64,000 bases of DNA from Phycisphaerales bacterium (GTDB lineage: Bacteria; Planctomycetota; Phycisphaerae; Phycisphaerales; UBA1924). Below are positions 24,042 through 54,766 of this stretch, piece after piece; positions within the stretch are counted from its first letter, which is position 1; every line of letters starts with the position of its first letter. The stretch lies in contig JAJDDD010000016.1 of NCBI GenBank assembly GCA_029260495.1, forward strand, positions 124,001 to 188,000, written 5' to 3'. Both the position numbers and the translations under genes were made by a program. The notes under the pieces were generated by a model. That model was not told the DNA's origin. It was given only the letters and a program-made list of their open reading frames with translations, and searched no databases.

Positions 24042-24258
24042 GTGTGGTCCACTCCTCTTGGCTGCCGGACGGGACGGTTCTTTACCTGAAAGGCCGTTCG
24101 GGCGAAACGACCCATTGTAGCGATCACGCGCTCGCGAGCGATATTCCGAGCCTCTGGCGCGGTCACGCTGGTCGCGCCAGGGTGGGCGCCCCAATGGTCG
24201 GTTCTCGGGCGTGCTTTTCACTGGACCGGGCCGCAAACCCGTCTACTCTGTGGGTGAG

Positions 24259-49900: not shown

Positions 49901-50175
49901 TGTTTCACTTTGATCGATGGTGGAACCCGGCGGTTGAGAATCAGGCGACAGACCGGGCTCATCGGATCGGGCAAACGCGGACGGTGCATGTGCATAAGTT
50001 CATGGTGCTGGGGACGCTTGAAGAGCGCATTGATCAGATGATCGAACAGAAAATGGAACTTGCGGATTCGATCATTTCGAGCGGTGAGCGTTGGCTTACT
50101 GAGCTTTCAACGGATCAACTGCGCGATATGTTGACGTTGCGAACTGATTCAGTTCTGGAAGAGGAGCGCGTATGA
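46921..50175 (+). CDS. SNF2-family helicase/ATPase
   Basis: 1084 residues. The first about 590 are a variable region ending in a SNF2-associated domain (bacterial SNF2 N-terminal type). The motor follows: L-A-D-D-M-G-L-G-K-T-I-Q (Walker A, about 619-630), L-V-A-P-T-S-V-V-S-N-W, L-D-E-A-Q-N-I-K-N (DEAQ box, about 725), L-T-G-T-P-V-E-N, and the second RecA lobe with F-T-Q-F, F-L-H-G-G-T and T-D-R-A-H-R-I-G-Q. SNF2 motors translocate on double-stranded DNA to remodel protein-DNA complexes. It overlaps the SWIM-finger gene by 4 bases. GGGAGGG directly precedes the ATG; ATG 46939 is an alternative. Confidence 0.93.
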   Translation: MSAQSGMRVMHASWSRGALWVWGEDASGYDAAPAATSGDEGGGLETGDAAGHPFAMGCDDLEKIVRELRLGELIAGDGELSLALPSTPAGPTPSPHLAHALGHSWHDVDRAGDSELRAWSAPAIEFDAEAAPFVLDALEERLGDSLSADDENGAGGSQAAVGVSIQFFAAAGRFARSLIAGQRVMPMLVQRSEGPLEGAWHAWLSDERTSERLGVLLSAMPGAARAVNDDHGHQPWAILEDFLQRVTDALCRRALIDDEMVNAIEGRDAGDDSHVAWLTGLLGGGREALAPAPDRARMQQRVRQWVGRLDERGADVEWRLRLWLEEPLILPDDKSDGVGAAWELRFQLESVEDEETVIDAAEVWSLPSDAATVDGRRLSSPGELLLAELGRASRLFAPLERALDESEPTALSLTTAQAHQFLSEVRPLLMEQGVGVRIPAWWGSQEARVGLRLEIESEETAPDGSSGSSEASEGSFGLSALVDYRWRIAVGEISLTLAEFEELAASKHPLLRLKGRWVEVRQEDLAAASRFVRETPGGKMHLSEALRIAYGAAEDSAAAPIVGLSATGWVSKILGGDGEEHKFEMIGQPDDFVGSLRPYQVKGLSWMAFLDRLGLGLCLADDMGLGKTIQLLALMLHERERAKEGVALGPTLLVAPTSVVSNWRRESARFAPSLKVVVHHGIERLAGDAMVKQAEESDLVVTTYAIVHRDRDDMSRVSWRRVVLDEAQNIKNPAAKQTKSLRALTATRRVALTGTPVENRLSELWSIMDFCNPGHLGKLGEFKRRFAAPIERRHDKQKGKQLRALVRPFVLRRLKSDPAIAADLPEKIETKELCPLTPEQASMYEETVRSMLEDVDRVDGMQRRGVVLATLIRLKQICNHPDNVARDSGKLGDEPAIASRSGKCQRLLEMLEEVTAAGGQALVFTQFRRMGRLLSSMIMHDLDTEALFLHGGTPAKSREQLVDRFQRGDGSSPIFILSLKAGGLGMNLTAANHVFHFDRWWNPAVENQATDRAHRIGQTRTVHVHKFMVLGTLEERIDQMIEQKMELADSIISSGERWLTELSTDQLRDMLTLRTDSVLEEERV

Positions 50176-51143
50176 ATCGGGGGCGTCATAGCAGTTTTAC
50201 GACAAGATTCCCGCAGCGGGACACGGAAAAACCACGAACGGTGCGCGGGGGCGTGAAGCTGCGCGGGAAGGACGCACCGAAAATTGAGGGTTGGGTTGGG
50301 CAGCGATGGCTGCGATTATTTGAGAACGCAGCTGCGGCCGAGGCGTTGCTCGGCGGTCTTGACTACTCAAAGCGCGGGCAGACGCGGTCAATCGTATTTG
50401 AGCCGGGCATGATGCTGGCGAAGGTGCAGGGGCGGGCGCCGCGCGCGTATGAAGTTGTCATAAAGATTCCCACGTTTTCACACGAGGTGTGGGAGCAGGG
50501 GATGGCGGCGATGACAGAGCAGGCGATTTATGCAGCCAAACTCTTGGCCGGGGAGATGCCGCGAAATATTGAGGATCTATTTGCGCCGTTGGGAGTGCGG
50601 CTTTTTCCAGCTGAAGCTGACGATGTGGAAGTATCGTGTTCCTGTAAGGAGGATGGGCCCTGGTGCAAGCATGTGTGCTGCTTGGGATATCTGGCAGGTG
50701 AAATACTTGATGCAGAGCCGTTTGAGATTTTCTCATTGCGCGGGATGGCGATTGGGGATGTTTCCGAGCGACTCCGACAGCGTCGCGCGGTGGCGGCGTC
50801 GGCGGGTGGGGCGGCGCCTGCATATACCCAGCGTCCCTTGCCGGATGAAGCCCTGAACGCTCCGGCGCTGGAGTTGTGCCTGGACGAGTTTTGGTCGGCT
50901 GGGAAGGGGCTTGACGAGCTTGAAACCTTGATCGAGCCCCCGGTGGTGTCACATCCGCTCTTGCGAAGGCTGGGGCCCTCGCCCTTTGAGAATGCGAAGT
51001 TTCCCTTGGTGGGGCTGCTGGCGACGTGCTATGACACCATGAGCAAGTGGGTGATCGAGCGGTCAGCCGGGGAAGGGGCGGATTCAGACGAGGGGGATGT
51101 AGAGGCTGAGGATTTTGATGGCGAAGGGGCGCCTCGTCTGTGA
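50172..51143 (+). CDS. SWIM zinc-finger protein, partner of the SNF2 helicase
   Basis: 323 residues. The SWIM motif C-x-C-x(n)-C-x-H is seen as C156-S-C158 ... C165-K-H167. SWIM fingers are DNA or protein binding modules. The early part (G-W-V-G-Q-R-W-L, A-R-G-Q-style turns, V-F-E-P-G) matches SWIM proteins that are usually encoded next to SNF2 helicases, as in the Bacillus subtilis ywqA-ywqB pair. The gene overlaps the helicase by ATGA. The acidic C-terminus (E-G-A-D-S-D-E-G-D) is poorly ordered. The pair probably acts in DNA repair or remodelling, which is inference. Confidence 0.88.
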   Translation: MNRGRHSSFTTRFPQRDTEKPRTVRGGVKLRGKDAPKIEGWVGQRWLRLFENAAAAEALLGGLDYSKRGQTRSIVFEPGMMLAKVQGRAPRAYEVVIKIPTFSHEVWEQGMAAMTEQAIYAAKLLAGEMPRNIEDLFAPLGVRLFPAEADDVEVSCSCKEDGPWCKHVCCLGYLAGEILDAEPFEIFSLRGMAIGDVSERLRQRRAVAASAGGAAPAYTQRPLPDEALNAPALELCLDEFWSAGKGLDELETLIEPPVVSHPLLRRLGPSPFENAKFPLVGLLATCYDTMSKWVIERSAGEGADSDEGDVEAEDFDGEGAPRL

Positions 51144-51156
51144 CAGAGGCGGCGGA

Positions 51157-51185
51157 TTGAAGGCGCCGGCGAGTCGGCGTACACT
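51157..51185 (+). promoter_or_regulatory. Sigma-70-type promoter before the candidate structured RNA
   Basis: TTGAAG (51157-51162), exactly 17 bases, then TACACT (51180-51185). The predicted start is near 51192, a few bases before the outer stem of the candidate RNA. No protein gene begins within 350 bases downstream. Confidence 0.6.
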
Positions 51186-51191
51186 TTGGGC

Positions 51192-51285
51192 CTTGCTCTC
51201 CCAATGGTGGAGCCGGCCGTGACGTGTAAGGCGCGGCCACGGGTTCTTCTGTCGCGGCAGATGGAGGATCCTGCTCCGGGAGAGG
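51192..51285 (+). ncRNA. Candidate structured small RNA
   Basis: The 301-base gap between the SWIM gene and tRNA-Gln holds no supported gene. Within it, CTCTCCC (51196-51202) pairs perfectly with GGGAGAG (51278-51284), and GGAGC (51209-51213) pairs with GCTCC (51273-51277), leaving a 6-base bulge on the 5' side only. Inside, GGCCGTG (215-221) pairs with CGCGGCC (232-238) around a 10-base loop, and a small CTG/CAG hairpin follows. A good promoter lies just upstream. The sequence does not show SRP, tmRNA, RNase P or 6S signatures. The 3' end is unknown; no U-tract is seen, so it might run into tRNA-Gln. Confidence 0.4.
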
Positions 51286-51444
51286 GCGCCGCGGACTCGC
51301 CTCAGACGAGCTTCCCGATGTGGAGGTTGGTCAGATCCAGCGTTTGCCGCGTGTGTGGTTGAACGTTGGTCCAGAGCCGTTGTGAAGTGGCTCGCTATTC
51401 ATCGGAGGCGATGTACTCAGATTTATTCGCGCAAAACGCCCGAA

Positions 51445-51517
51445 TGGCCCGTGGTGCAATCGGTAGCACGTCTGGTTTTGATCCAGAAGGTTCTAGGTTC
51501 GAGTCCTAGCGGGCCAG
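51445..51517 (+). tRNA. tRNA-Gln (anticodon TTG)
   Basis: 73 nt. Acceptor TGGCCCG / CGGGCCA, discriminator G. Anticodon stem TCTGG/CCAGA with loop TTTTGAT, anticodon TTG. T-arm TAGGTTCGAGTCCTA. CCA is not encoded. The glmU-like gene starts 67 bases later on the same strand. Confidence 0.95.
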
Positions 51518-51584
51518 CTTTTTGTTTGGCTTGGGCAGCTGAAGAGTGGAGCGCGGGAGTTTCTGAGCAATCGAAGTGATTGGG

Positions 51585-52352
51585 ATGTCAAAGCCATTAG
51601 CCGCCATCATTCTTGCTGCGGGCAAGGGCACGCGGATGAAGAGCGATCTGCCGAAGGTTGCGCATGAGGTCGCTGGTGCGCCGATGGTGCGCTGGGTGGT
51701 CGCTGCGTGTCGGCAGGCGGGGTGCGAGCAAATCTCGCTGGTGGTTGGTCATCGGCAGGAGATCGTGCGGGAGATTTTTTCTGACGATGCGGATGACATC
51801 ATTTTCATCGAGCAGACTGAGCAACTCGGGACGGGGCATGCGGTCATGTGCGCCAAGAGCGCACTGGCGGATTATGTCGGAGATGTCCTGGTGCTGTGCG
51901 GCGATGGTCCATTGATTCGCGGCGCCACGATTGGGCGCCTTGTCGAGCGACATCAGAGATCGGAAGCGATTTGTACTATGGCGACCGCGACGGTCGAGAA
52001 CGCAGCCGGGTACGGGCGTGTTCTGCGCGATCAGGCAGGCGTTTTTGTCGGCATTGTCGAAGAGAAAAACGCGACACCCGAGCAGCGGGAGATTCGTGAG
52101 ATCAATCCGAGTTATTACTGCTTTGAACGGGAGGCGCTCTTTGGCGCGCTTGAGCGTGTCGGGAAGGATGCGATTTCAGGCGAATACTATGTCACAGAGG
52201 CGCCGACGATTTTGCTTCAGGATGGCGCCGGCGTAGATGTTGTAGACATTGTGCCTGAGGATGAAGTGCATTCGATCAACACAGTCGAGCAGCTCGAGCA
52301 AGTCGCACAGATTCTTCTCGCGCGTGCGAATCAACATGAGGTGGGCGCCTGA
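51585..52352 (+). CDS. UDP-GlcNAc pyrophosphorylase-type nucleotidyltransferase (GlmU N-terminal domain only)
   Basis: 255 residues from the ATG at 51585; an upstream GTG at 51576 is possible. The signature L-A-A-G-K-G-T-R-M-K-S-D-L-P-K-V, followed by Q-L-G-T-G-H-A-V, L-C-G-D-G-P-L and G-Y-G-R-V, is that of the GlmU uridyltransferase domain, which makes UDP-GlcNAc from UTP and GlcNAc-1-phosphate. The C-terminal left-handed beta-helix acetyltransferase of bifunctional GlmU is absent. The acetyltransferase step must come from elsewhere. The gene overlaps prs by one base (TGATG). Confidence 0.88.
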   Translation: MSKPLAAIILAAGKGTRMKSDLPKVAHEVAGAPMVRWVVAACRQAGCEQISLVVGHRQEIVREIFSDDADDIIFIEQTEQLGTGHAVMCAKSALADYVGDVLVLCGDGPLIRGATIGRLVERHQRSEAICTMATATVENAAGYGRVLRDQAGVFVGIVEEKNATPEQREIREINPSYYCFEREALFGALERVGKDAISGEYYVTEAPTILLQDGAGVDVVDIVPEDEVHSINTVEQLEQVAQILLARANQHEVGA

Positions 52353-53335
52353 TGGCTGCGAGCGACGCTGACACATTGAAGATTTTCACCGGACAGGGCA
52401 GTCGGGAGTTGGCGCAGCGGGTTTGCGACCATCTTGAGTTGCCTCTCGGGCATGGGGATACCGAAGTGTTCCCGGACGGCGAGCTATTGGTGAAGGTGGA
52501 ACAGGACGTGCGCGGACGCGATTGCTACATCATGCTTTCGACGTCGAAGCCGGTGAATGACAATCTGATGGAGTTGTTGATTTACTGTGATTGCTTGCGG
52601 CGGGCGTCGGCGGCGCGGGTGGCGGTAGTGATTCCGTACTTCGGCTACGGGAGGCAGGATCGGAAAGACGTCGGGCGGACGCCGATCACCGCGAAACTGG
52701 TCGCGAACCTGATCACCGAGGCGGGGGCGGATCGGGTGCTCGCCCTGGACCTGCACGCGGCGCAGATTCAGGGGTTCTTTGATATTCCGGTGGACCATCT
52801 TTCTGCGGCGCCGGTCTTTTATCAGTATTTCAGCGAGCGGCGCGAAGAGCTTGGCGATCTGGTGGTGGCGAGTCCGGATGTCGGGAATGTGAAGGTCGCG
52901 AATATGTACGCTGACCTTCTGGGCGGCGAGCTAGCGATTGTCGAGAAGCGACGACTTTCGGGAAGTCAGGTGGACACCGTGAATCTTGTCGGCGATGTGC
53001 GCAACCGCACAGTGCTGATGATGGATGACATGATCTCGACTGGCGGGACAGTGTGTTCTGCGGCGGAGCTGGTGATGGATCGGGGAGCGAAGGAAGTGAT
53101 CGTCGGCGCGACGCACGCTGTGTTGGTTGGGCCAGCGATTGAACGGCTGGCTGCAAGCCCGATTCGAAAGATCGTATTTACAAACACGATTCCCCTGGGC
53201 GATCGACTGACGCCAATTCAGGATCGCGTTGTGGAGCTATGTGTTGGCAAGCTGCTCGGCGATGCGATTCACCGGATTCATCACAACCTCTCCGTGAGCG
53301 AGTTGTTCGCTTTCGCGAAGCAGACAAAGAGATAA
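52352..53335 (+). CDS. prs: Ribose-phosphate pyrophosphokinase
   Basis: Makes PRPP from ribose 5-phosphate and ATP for nucleotide, His and Trp synthesis. 327 residues. Signatures: G-D-T-E-V-F-P-D-G-E, Y-F-G-Y-G-R-Q-D-R-K, D-L-H-A-A-Q-I-Q-G-F-F, S-P-D-V-G-N-V-K, V-E-K-R-R, and the PRPP loop D-D-M-I-S-T-G-G-T. The neighbouring genes (UDP-sugar synthesis, then L25 and pth) reproduce the common bacterial order glmU-prs-rplY-pth. Confidence 0.96.
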   Translation: MAASDADTLKIFTGQGSRELAQRVCDHLELPLGHGDTEVFPDGELLVKVEQDVRGRDCYIMLSTSKPVNDNLMELLIYCDCLRRASAARVAVVIPYFGYGRQDRKDVGRTPITAKLVANLITEAGADRVLALDLHAAQIQGFFDIPVDHLSAAPVFYQYFSERREELGDLVVASPDVGNVKVANMYADLLGGELAIVEKRRLSGSQVDTVNLVGDVRNRTVLMMDDMISTGGTVCSAAELVMDRGAKEVIVGATHAVLVGPAIERLAASPIRKIVFTNTIPLGDRLTPIQDRVVELCVGKLLGDAIHRIHHNLSVSELFAFAKQTKR

Positions 53336-53390
53336 TTCCAAAAGAGAATCTAAGAAATAGTTCAACGAAGCACCTGGAGGCATGATTGAG

Positions 53391-54056
53391 ATGGCGACTG
53401 AGACACATGTTTTACGAAGCACGAAACGCGACCGACTTGGAACGCGATATGCACGTCGAGTGCGCGAGGCCGGGGGCCTTCCGGGCGTGGTGTACGGGCA
53501 CGGGCAAGCGCCGGTGCATGTAGCGATCGAAGCCAAGGATGCATTGCTGCATATCAACGCGGGCGAGAAGGTGTTCTCGCTGAAGATGGACAGCGACGCT
53601 GACGAAACGGTGCTGCTCAAGGATGTGCAGTTTGATTACCTGGGCACGAATATCATCCATGTTGATCTGGCGCGAGTTGACCTGAACGAGATGGTTGAGG
53701 TGCAGGCGCATGTGCGGCTTGTGGGCGAGTCGGACGCCATGAAGGAGGCGGGCGCTATTTTGCTGCACCCGACCAACTCAATCGAGATTCGATGCCGCGT
53801 GACGGACATTCCCGAGCATATTGAACTTGACATCTCTGAGCTTGAGATCGGGCACTCTCTTCATGCGAGCGATTTGAAACTTCCGAGTGGATTTGAGCTT
53901 GCCTCAGATCCCGATGACGTGCTTGCGAACATTGTGATCAAGCAGGAGGTCGAGGAGCCGGCCGAGGGCGCCGAGGTCGTTGGTGAAGGCGAAGGGCCCG
54001 AGGTCATTACCGAGAAGAAGGATGAGTCTGATTCTGAGGGTGAGAAGAAGGAGTGA
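53391..54056 (+). CDS. rplY: 50S ribosomal protein L25 (CTC/TL5 type)
   Basis: 221 residues from the ATG at 53391; GGAGG lies 10 bases upstream, and the ATG at 53382 is too close to it. The N-terminal 5S rRNA-binding domain has R-L-G-T-R-Y-A-R-R-V-R-E-A-G-G-L-P-G-V-V-Y-G-H, and the second, CTC-type domain has H-V-D-L-A-R-V-D-L-N-E and I-E-I-R-C-R-V-T-D-I-P. The last about 40 residues are strongly acidic. The stop overlaps the pth start (GTGA). Confidence 0.94.
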   Translation: MATETHVLRSTKRDRLGTRYARRVREAGGLPGVVYGHGQAPVHVAIEAKDALLHINAGEKVFSLKMDSDADETVLLKDVQFDYLGTNIIHVDLARVDLNEMVEVQAHVRLVGESDAMKEAGAILLHPTNSIEIRCRVTDIPEHIELDISELEIGHSLHASDLKLPSGFELASDPDDVLANIVIKQEVEEPAEGAEVVGEGEGPEVITEKKDESDSEGEKKE

Positions 54057-54766
54057 AGTTGATCGTCGGTCTGGGCAATCCTGGTCTGGAGTATGTGCGC
54101 ACGCGACACAACGCGGGTTTTCTCGCGGTGGATTGTCTGGCGCGTCGACATGCGGCGGGAGCCGTCCCGCGAGGGCGGTTCCACGCGCTGACGGTGGATG
54201 TGACGATCGGCAGCGAAAAATGCATGTTGGTGAAGCCCACAACGTACATGAACCGATCCGGGCAGGCTGTCGCCGAAGCGTTGCGGTTTTATAAGCTGGA
54301 CCCGGTTGATGATCTGCTGGTGTTGGTTGACGACGTGGCGCTTCCGGTTGGGAGCGTGCGTATTCGGAAGCAGGGCTCAGCGGGTGGGCACAACGGGCTC
54401 ATTGATATCGAGCGGCTGCTTGGAACAGATGAGTACGCGCGGTGCCGGATCGGGATAGATGGGCCAGGACGGATTCCTCAGAAGGATTACGTGCTCGGAC
54501 GGTTTACGGATGAGCAGCAGGAAGCAGTGGAAGCTGCAGTTGAGAAGTCTGCGGATGCTGCTGAGGTGTGGGTGAATCAGGGCGTGACAACCGCGATGAA
54601 TACGTTCAATGTTCGGCCGCCGAAACCCAAGCAGGAGCGGAAGCCGACTGAGACGGCAAACCCTGCGACGATCAAGATTGAAGAAAACGACAGTAAAATG
54701 GAAGACAATGATCGCAGCGTCTGCGAGAAGGACGCTGAGCTAAGAAAAGGTGATGAATCGCTATGA
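54053..54766 (+). CDS. pth: Peptidyl-tRNA hydrolase with C-terminal extension
   Basis: Recycles peptidyl-tRNA released by stalled ribosomes. 237 residues from a GTG start overlapping rplY. Catalytic and binding motifs: G-L-G-N-P-G-L-E-Y, the active-site His in T-R-H-N-A-G-F, K-P-T-T-Y-M-N-R-S-G, D-D-V-A-L-P-V-G, and G-S-A-G-G-H-N-G-L. The enzyme core ends near residue 190; about 47 more residues, rich in Lys, Glu and Asp, have no family counterpart that I know. The stop overlaps rpsF (ATGA). Confidence 0.94.
   Translation: MKLIVGLGNPGLEYVRTRHNAGFLAVDCLARRHAAGAVPRGRFHALTVDVTIGSEKCMLVKPTTYMNRSGQAVAEALRFYKLDPVDDLLVLVDDVALPVGSVRIRKQGSAGGHNGLIDIERLLGTDEYARCRIGIDGPGRIPQKDYVLGRFTDEQQEAVEAAVEKSADAAEVWVNQGVTTAMNTFNVRPPKPKQERKPTETANPATIKIEENDSKMEDNDRSVCEKDAELRKGDESL

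Follow-up and report, generated by a model that had tools for sequence, protein, structure and literature searches.

A 64,000-nucleotide stretch of Phycisphaerales DNA (here called the window, meaning the stretch at its full length) carries what appears to be a member of a structured RNA family absent from Rfam 15, approximately 220 nt long and located between its own promoter motif and the gene for tRNA-Gln(UUG). Comparison with relatives indicates that this RNA is kept in the same place across many genera and several orders of one bacterial class, probably Phycisphaerae to judge from the names of the matched loci, which belong to Phycisphaerales, Phycisphaeraceae, Tepidisphaera and some other Planctomycetes. 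An earlier note on this DNA had suggested that a structured RNA with its own promoter lies upstream of tRNA-Gln at 51157-51285, a proposal that covariation and a conserved promoter motif now support; this interval holds the promoter and the 5' domain of a longer RNA. The 3' end, which the note set at 51285, lies further on, at about 51411, 33 nt 5' of the tRNA-Gln(UUG) start at 51445. As judged from a fold of 51192-51415 and from model matches and covariation in relatives, the whole RNA would comprise two domains and occupy 51192-51411 on the + strand, as do all the features described below. Nor is the region downstream free of genes for 350 bases, as had been stated: tRNA-Gln starts 160 bases beyond 51285 and a GlmU-like gene about 300 bases beyond it.

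Because the 129-nt stretch 51157-51285 alone folds no better than its own shuffles (z -1.36; 21/200 shuffles as good), a single sequence proves little here. The minimum free energy (MFE) fold of 51192-51415, in which both domains are present, has a z of -2.43, with 2/200 shuffles as good. The reality of the RNA rests on comparison among relatives, not on a single fold. An alignment of 18 sequences from the window's order, the window copy among them (A1), gave the structure, which consists of helices P1b, P2, P4, an optional P3 and a pseudoknot. In this alignment 88.7% of cells are paired compared to 81.5% in shuffled alignments, and there are 17 double-change pairs compared to 8.4; slid controls reach 34-48%. 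A larger alignment of 42 order sequences (A3) has 88.1% of cells paired versus 70.0% shuffled and 181 double-change cells versus 53.6, with no shuffle as high. It was made from the 48 rows of A2 by leaving out six that were doubtful, truncated or badly aligned (L024, L046, L049, L050, L053, L064).

Two further alignments cover the class. The first, A4, is a plain MAFFT alignment of 16 class sequences, none from the order, with the structure written by hand; 85.6% of its cells are paired versus 70.3% shuffled, with 95 double-change cells versus 35.0. Eight of the 24 class cores were left out of it for unusual lengths (L100, L134, L137, L143, L150, L155, L159, L161). The second, A5, consists of 36 class model matches realigned from 37 sources (L155 was missed) and gives 89.8% versus 68.6%, with 231 double-change cells versus 74.2. 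A1, A3 and A5 are biased in favour of the structure, their sequences having been hand-chosen or model-fitted. On every measure, in all alignments, at most 1/500 shuffles equalled the observed value. When the order and the remaining class orders are aligned separately, 86-90% of cells are paired, compared to 31-55% in slid controls. Covariance analysis was the check that the earlier note had named for its candidate, and conservation and compensatory changes were indeed found in both the order and the class alignments. These changes, far above shuffles and slid controls, refute the reading in which there is no RNA at all and the helices are a chance fold or part of a coding sequence. The poor fold of the 129-nt stretch alone speaks for that reading, to which we give practically no credence.

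By sequence comparison, the first ~100 nt form a three-way junction, closed by P1 and carrying the P2 and P4 hairpins, and the P4 loop forms a pseudoknot with a strand lying 3' of this junction. The outer helix, P1a (CUCUCCC 51196-51202 / GGGAGAG 51278-51284), is present in the fold, and its class homologue comprises 8 pairs, of which 7 show two-sided changes in the 36-sequence alignment; it is general in the class alignment, and within the order it was seen by eye in some copies only (the window genome G000, G009, G031). In the 42-sequence order alignment, P1b (GGAGC 51209-51213 / GCUCC 51273-51277), which closes the junction, is paired in 98.1% of cells with double changes in 4/5 pairs; P2 (51215-51221 / 51232-51238) is paired in 95.1%, with double changes in 5/7; and P4 (51241-51272), with the apical loop GCGGCA at 51254-51259, is paired in 79.4%, with double changes in 10/12. 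Many relatives carry the optional element P3 as an extra apical helix on P2. In the class realignment there is a G-U at one P4 pair in 33/36 sequences and at one P1b pair in 28/36, and such frequent G-U fits only an RNA made from the + strand. The two stacked helices of the earlier note are thus recovered as P1a and P1b, but they enclose two hairpins and not the single one described.

Covariation and partner swaps both point to the pseudoknot between the P4 loop (GCGGC 51254-51258) and GCCGC 51288-51292. The loop is GCGGC in most copies, and within the order the pseudoknot is paired in 95.5% of cells in the 18-sequence alignment but is nearly invariant; G048, by eye, has GGCGC facing GCGCC. 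Its homologue in the class has double changes in 5/6 pairs and 92.1% of cells paired, with examples such as UCACGG/CCGUGA, UCGCAG/CUGCGA and UAGCGGC/GCCGCUA. The fit between a P4 loop and its pseudoknot partner is also better within a sequence than after partners are exchanged (mean 6.13 vs 5.17 +- 0.10, 0/5000).

Beyond the pseudoknot, copies of the window's family appear to have a second domain. A long-range helix, P7, would close it by pairing the strand that comes next with a GGAGG-like element upstream of the tRNA; the window's P7 is UCGCCUC 51297-51303 with GAGGCGA 51405-51411, as given by partner swap and the MFE fold. The test relied on is the partner swap, where own partners score 15.4 and swapped ones 13.5 +- 0.38 (0/5000) among the 47 of 81 order sequences with GGAG, related sequences that are not independent of each other. 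Scored as the longest helix against per-sequence shuffles, P7 was matched by 8 to 100 of 100 shuffles, which is not convincing alone. The GGAGG before tRNA-Gln was at one point considered as a Shine-Dalgarno site; we dropped this reading, since inspection by eye reveals no start codon behind it and the element is the 3' strand of P7. Within the second domain the fold places a hairpin, P6, at 51337-51369, containing a second CCGCG at 51347-51351, a possible competitor of GCCGC 51288-51292 for pairing with the P4 loop. By eye, no covariation between this second CCGCG and the loop is seen within the order.

To find copies in relatives we used GlmU-like proteins to fetch the syntenic stretch, with a match in 59/61 genomes. 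Stretches upstream of GlmU were taken from 57/59 of these, leaving out G016 (contig end) and G028 (weak), and in 56/57 of them tRNA-Gln(UUG) lies just 5' of glmU. All-against-all comparison revealed a conserved stretch within 450 nt upstream of tRNA-Gln. In a DNA search with the 301-nt region, all the matches listed apart from the window itself were weak and mostly chance-like; those in G015, G010 and G050 stood out, being upstream of glmU. A model built from A1 (R1) and searched locally matches 42/58 order loci at E <=0.01 and 53/58 at E <=1.1, and all 53 of these matches lie on the same strand as tRNA-Gln, 44-304 nt before it.

We built two further models, R2 from the 42 order sequences and R3 from the 16 class sequences. 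In whole-genome searches R2 matches 61/151 order genomes at E <=0.001, with one copy each; this is a lower bound set by strict filters, as several genomes without a match prove to carry the RNA when searched locally (e.g., G006, G014, G033). R2 also matches 21/34 named loci at E <=0.001. R3 matches 36/120 class genomes, again with one copy each, comprising 36/101 outside the order and 0/19 within it; this too is a lower bound, and in whole-genome mode R3 misses the order. Among the genomes with no match at the strict whole-genome threshold (90/151 in the order, 84/120 in the class), some have the RNA when searched locally and others may not. Used locally, R3 finds 6/58 order loci at the right place, with E from 0.047 to 1.8. 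Its match to the window copy, at 51193-51297 (E 0.11), has a weak score and a telling place; the same local search gives a few chance matches of like score (position 24087 of the window, L038). Across the phylum, R2 matches 4/246 genomes, all in the order, with 8 other order members there unmatched, and R3 matches 2/294, both in the class, with other class members there unmatched. Neither model recovers every copy at the settings used, so the phylum searches do not establish that the RNA is absent outside the class. In the other class orders the gene arrangement tRNA-Gln-glmU is kept in many genomes, and by eye a cognate RNA with a different consensus precedes tRNA-Gln in 24/30 stretches.

The genomic neighbourhood is close to constant. 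In the window, tRNA-Gln (UUG) at 51445-51518, the direct neighbour in relatives too, is followed at 51591-54766 by the rest of a presumed operon whose Pfam matches are a GlmU-like NTP transferase, Prs, L25/TL5 and peptidyl-tRNA hydrolase. tRNA-Gln(UUG) lies immediately 3' of the RNA, in the same orientation, in 61/61 order matches and 34/36 class matches. The distance is 49-260 nt in the order matches fetched anew (40/40, same strand) and 51-264 nt in the remaining 21; it is 47-317 nt at 30 class loci, and four more class matches (G414, G422, G456, G460) also have tRNA-Gln directly downstream. The two exceptions, G444 (E 4.2e-4) and G433 (E 5.5e-4), are the weakest class matches; there the RNA is followed by a protein gene, IlvD/Edd by Pfam in G433 and ilvD-like by eye in G444, with tRNA-Gln ~2 kb away. 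Both have a TTGACA-N17-TATACT or TATAGT motif before the RNA, which still heads the cluster. No match examined places the RNA away from the cluster (61/61 in the order and 36/36 in the class, two of them with ilvD between). The two class loci at which an ilvD-like gene separates the RNA from tRNA-Gln are L235 and L236, and in L164 the end of an ilvD-like frame lies, by eye, directly 5' of tRNA-Gln. Of the loci with a weak glmU or none that were inspected by eye, 10/10 have a Prs-like frame after tRNA-Gln.

The promoter reported by the earlier note is present at 51157-51185, where TTGAAG (51157-51162) and TACACT (51180-51185) are separated by 17 nt in a sigma70-like arrangement; transcription would be expected to start near 51192. 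This site has 8/12 consensus bases, and a 9-of-12 scan lists none there. Conservation was assessed in 101 upstream stretches with a placeable core start, made up of 37 from a first set, 40 new ones and 24 from the class; 11 uncertain stretches were left out of the first set by name, plus others without an anchor. A sigma70-like site of >=9/12 occurs in 55/101 of these stretches compared to 1.6% of mononucleotide shuffles, and one of >=8/12 in 78/101 compared to 8.5%; the latter end 2-38 nt before the modelled RNA core. At the level of a sequence motif, the RNA therefore appears to have a promoter of its own.

No conserved terminator follows the RNA core in the same stretches (terminator-like sites in 5/101, 1.3 expected), and the interval from tRNA-Gln to glmU contains no promoter-like site (9/12) in any of 56 genomes, against 0.7 expected. 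Together these results argue that RNA-tRNA-Gln-(glmU)-prs-rplY-pth is probably transcribed as one unit, with the RNA as its 5' end. U-runs occur <=25 nt after tRNA-Gln in 10/56 genomes (1.6 expected), the window among them, which points to a possible partial stop at which a share of transcripts might end.

We compared the locus and 20 class loci with Rfam 15 (4227 models); tRNA alone scored above the cut-offs, the other matches being far below them. The literature covered, namely titles, the beginnings of abstracts and passages of PMC2864571 and PMC8567305, contains no report of the RNA in those parts, with a 2017 set of 224 candidate RNAs outside this comparison. By new we mean the RNA family; its mechanism may yet turn out to be a familiar one, and an earlier description may exist in the literature.

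The earlier note saw no likeness to SRP, tmRNA, RNase P or 6S RNA, and this holds: the first three are elsewhere in the window's genome, and 6S is elsewhere in 13 relatives. RNase P RNA, tmRNA and bacterial small SRP RNA have their own copies above cut-off in G000, at C6, C3 and C4, respectively, which counts against the RNA being one of these. In favour of a diverged 6S RNA, 6S RNA (RF00013) has no match at the locus or elsewhere in the window's genome; 6S is likewise a single-copy structured RNA of ~200 nt. Yet 13 class genomes carry both RNAs at different places, eight with 6S above cut-off (G225, G408, G416, G420, G432, G448, G449, G460) and five with it below (G422, G429, G433, G451, G455), which refutes the idea for those relatives. 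The architecture differs too: 6S is one long hairpin, with no three-way junction and pseudoknot, whereas the present RNA is branched and pseudoknotted. We therefore regard a diverged 6S or other classical RNA as very improbable. Overall, 6S matches were found in 36/81 class genomes at E <=0.001, 23 of them above the Rfam cut-off.

It is an evenly balanced judgement, and the reading that we prefer, that the RNA acts mainly in cis, as the leader of the tRNA-Gln-(glmU)-prs-rplY-pth operon. Beyond the structure, the promoter motif and the place, we infer every step of it. The leader would fold while leaving RNA polymerase and would set how much transcription passes the long untranslated stretch into tRNA-Gln and the downstream genes, perhaps by keeping Rho away, or in response to a ligand or protein; the tRNA would then be released by RNase P, with the RNA left behind. 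What argues for action in cis is that a promoter-proximal, pseudoknotted RNA is kept at the head of one operon class-wide. On the other side, with a tRNA separating the RNA from the protein genes, processing would detach the leader from the mRNA, and no conserved expression platform (terminator or anti-terminator) is apparent from the sequence. The lack of a terminator, with the tRNA in between, disfavours a classical attenuator. The operon can also do without the RNA: in G045 (L069) a promoter lies right before tRNA-Gln without the RNA (by eye; no R1 match), and in L132, L136 and L156, from one family, there is only a short hairpin between promoter and tRNA-Gln.

The main rival is a trans-acting or protein-binding house-keeping RNA that shares the tRNA-Gln transcript only to obtain its 3' cut from RNase P and is then free, a reading we find plausible although its chances fall short of even. 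It would account for a compact, pseudoknotted RNA with one copy per matched genome and no conserved terminator of its own, whose domain 2, in the window, stops ~33 nt short of the tRNA; it sits less easily with an RNA that is never away from the cluster in the matches examined. The ilvD cases cut both ways. They reveal that ilvD can separate the RNA from the tRNA without loss of the RNA, yet the RNA still leads the cluster there, and RNase P acting at tRNA-Gln could not trim it.

Ribosomal-protein leaders are a known kind of RNA, and the operon includes, by Pfam, an L25 gene (rplY), which might suggest an autogenous leader bound by ribosomal protein L25/TL5; with tRNA-Gln, glmU and prs intervening, and no such leader family found here in Rfam 15, we think this improbable. 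We entertain only tentatively, and with more doubt than belief, a broader idea, that the RNA separating the promoter from the tRNA gene is a class-wide regulator, responsive to a ligand, to a protein or to the state of the polymerase, and controls tRNA-Gln with prs, rplY and pth in cis. We know of no leader RNAs of such a kind before a tRNA gene, and if this were true the supply of a tRNA would be set by an RNA device in cis. More generally, a cis role would mean a leader RNA governing a tRNA, and a trans role a house-keeping RNA of the class; with the structure described at the level of base pairs and a fixed genomic neighbour, the function is directly testable.

The RNA shares features with several known regulatory RNAs. 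Like riboswitches and other 5' leaders, the RNA is promoter-proximal and compact, has a loop-to-3' pseudoknot and is kept with one operon; the conserved structured domain and the place at the operon head are both found, within a transcript that is predicted. Unlike them, it has no Rfam match, it is followed first by a tRNA gene, and the intrinsic terminators of a riboswitch expression platform are not conserved in the 101 stretches. The cis-acting antitermination RNAs put and EAR, compared here through Rfam, are similar in being promoter-proximal structured RNAs that head an operon with a long untranslated stretch; for the present RNA, in contrast, an action on polymerase is a proposal. The main domain is followed by a CCGCG-rich element that, by eye, resembles the T-box sequence of T-box leaders. 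These differ from the present RNA, which lacks a constant aminoacyl-tRNA synthetase neighbour and a conserved terminator, and the T-box reading of the element was dropped in view of the lack of any Rfam T-box match in the stretches scanned.

On the other side of the promoter, the gene upstream of the RNA in the window (50172-51143) has no Pfam match, looks SWIM-like by eye and adjoins an SNF2 helicase; in other genomes, e.g., G020, a different gene, again judged by eye, stands in this position.
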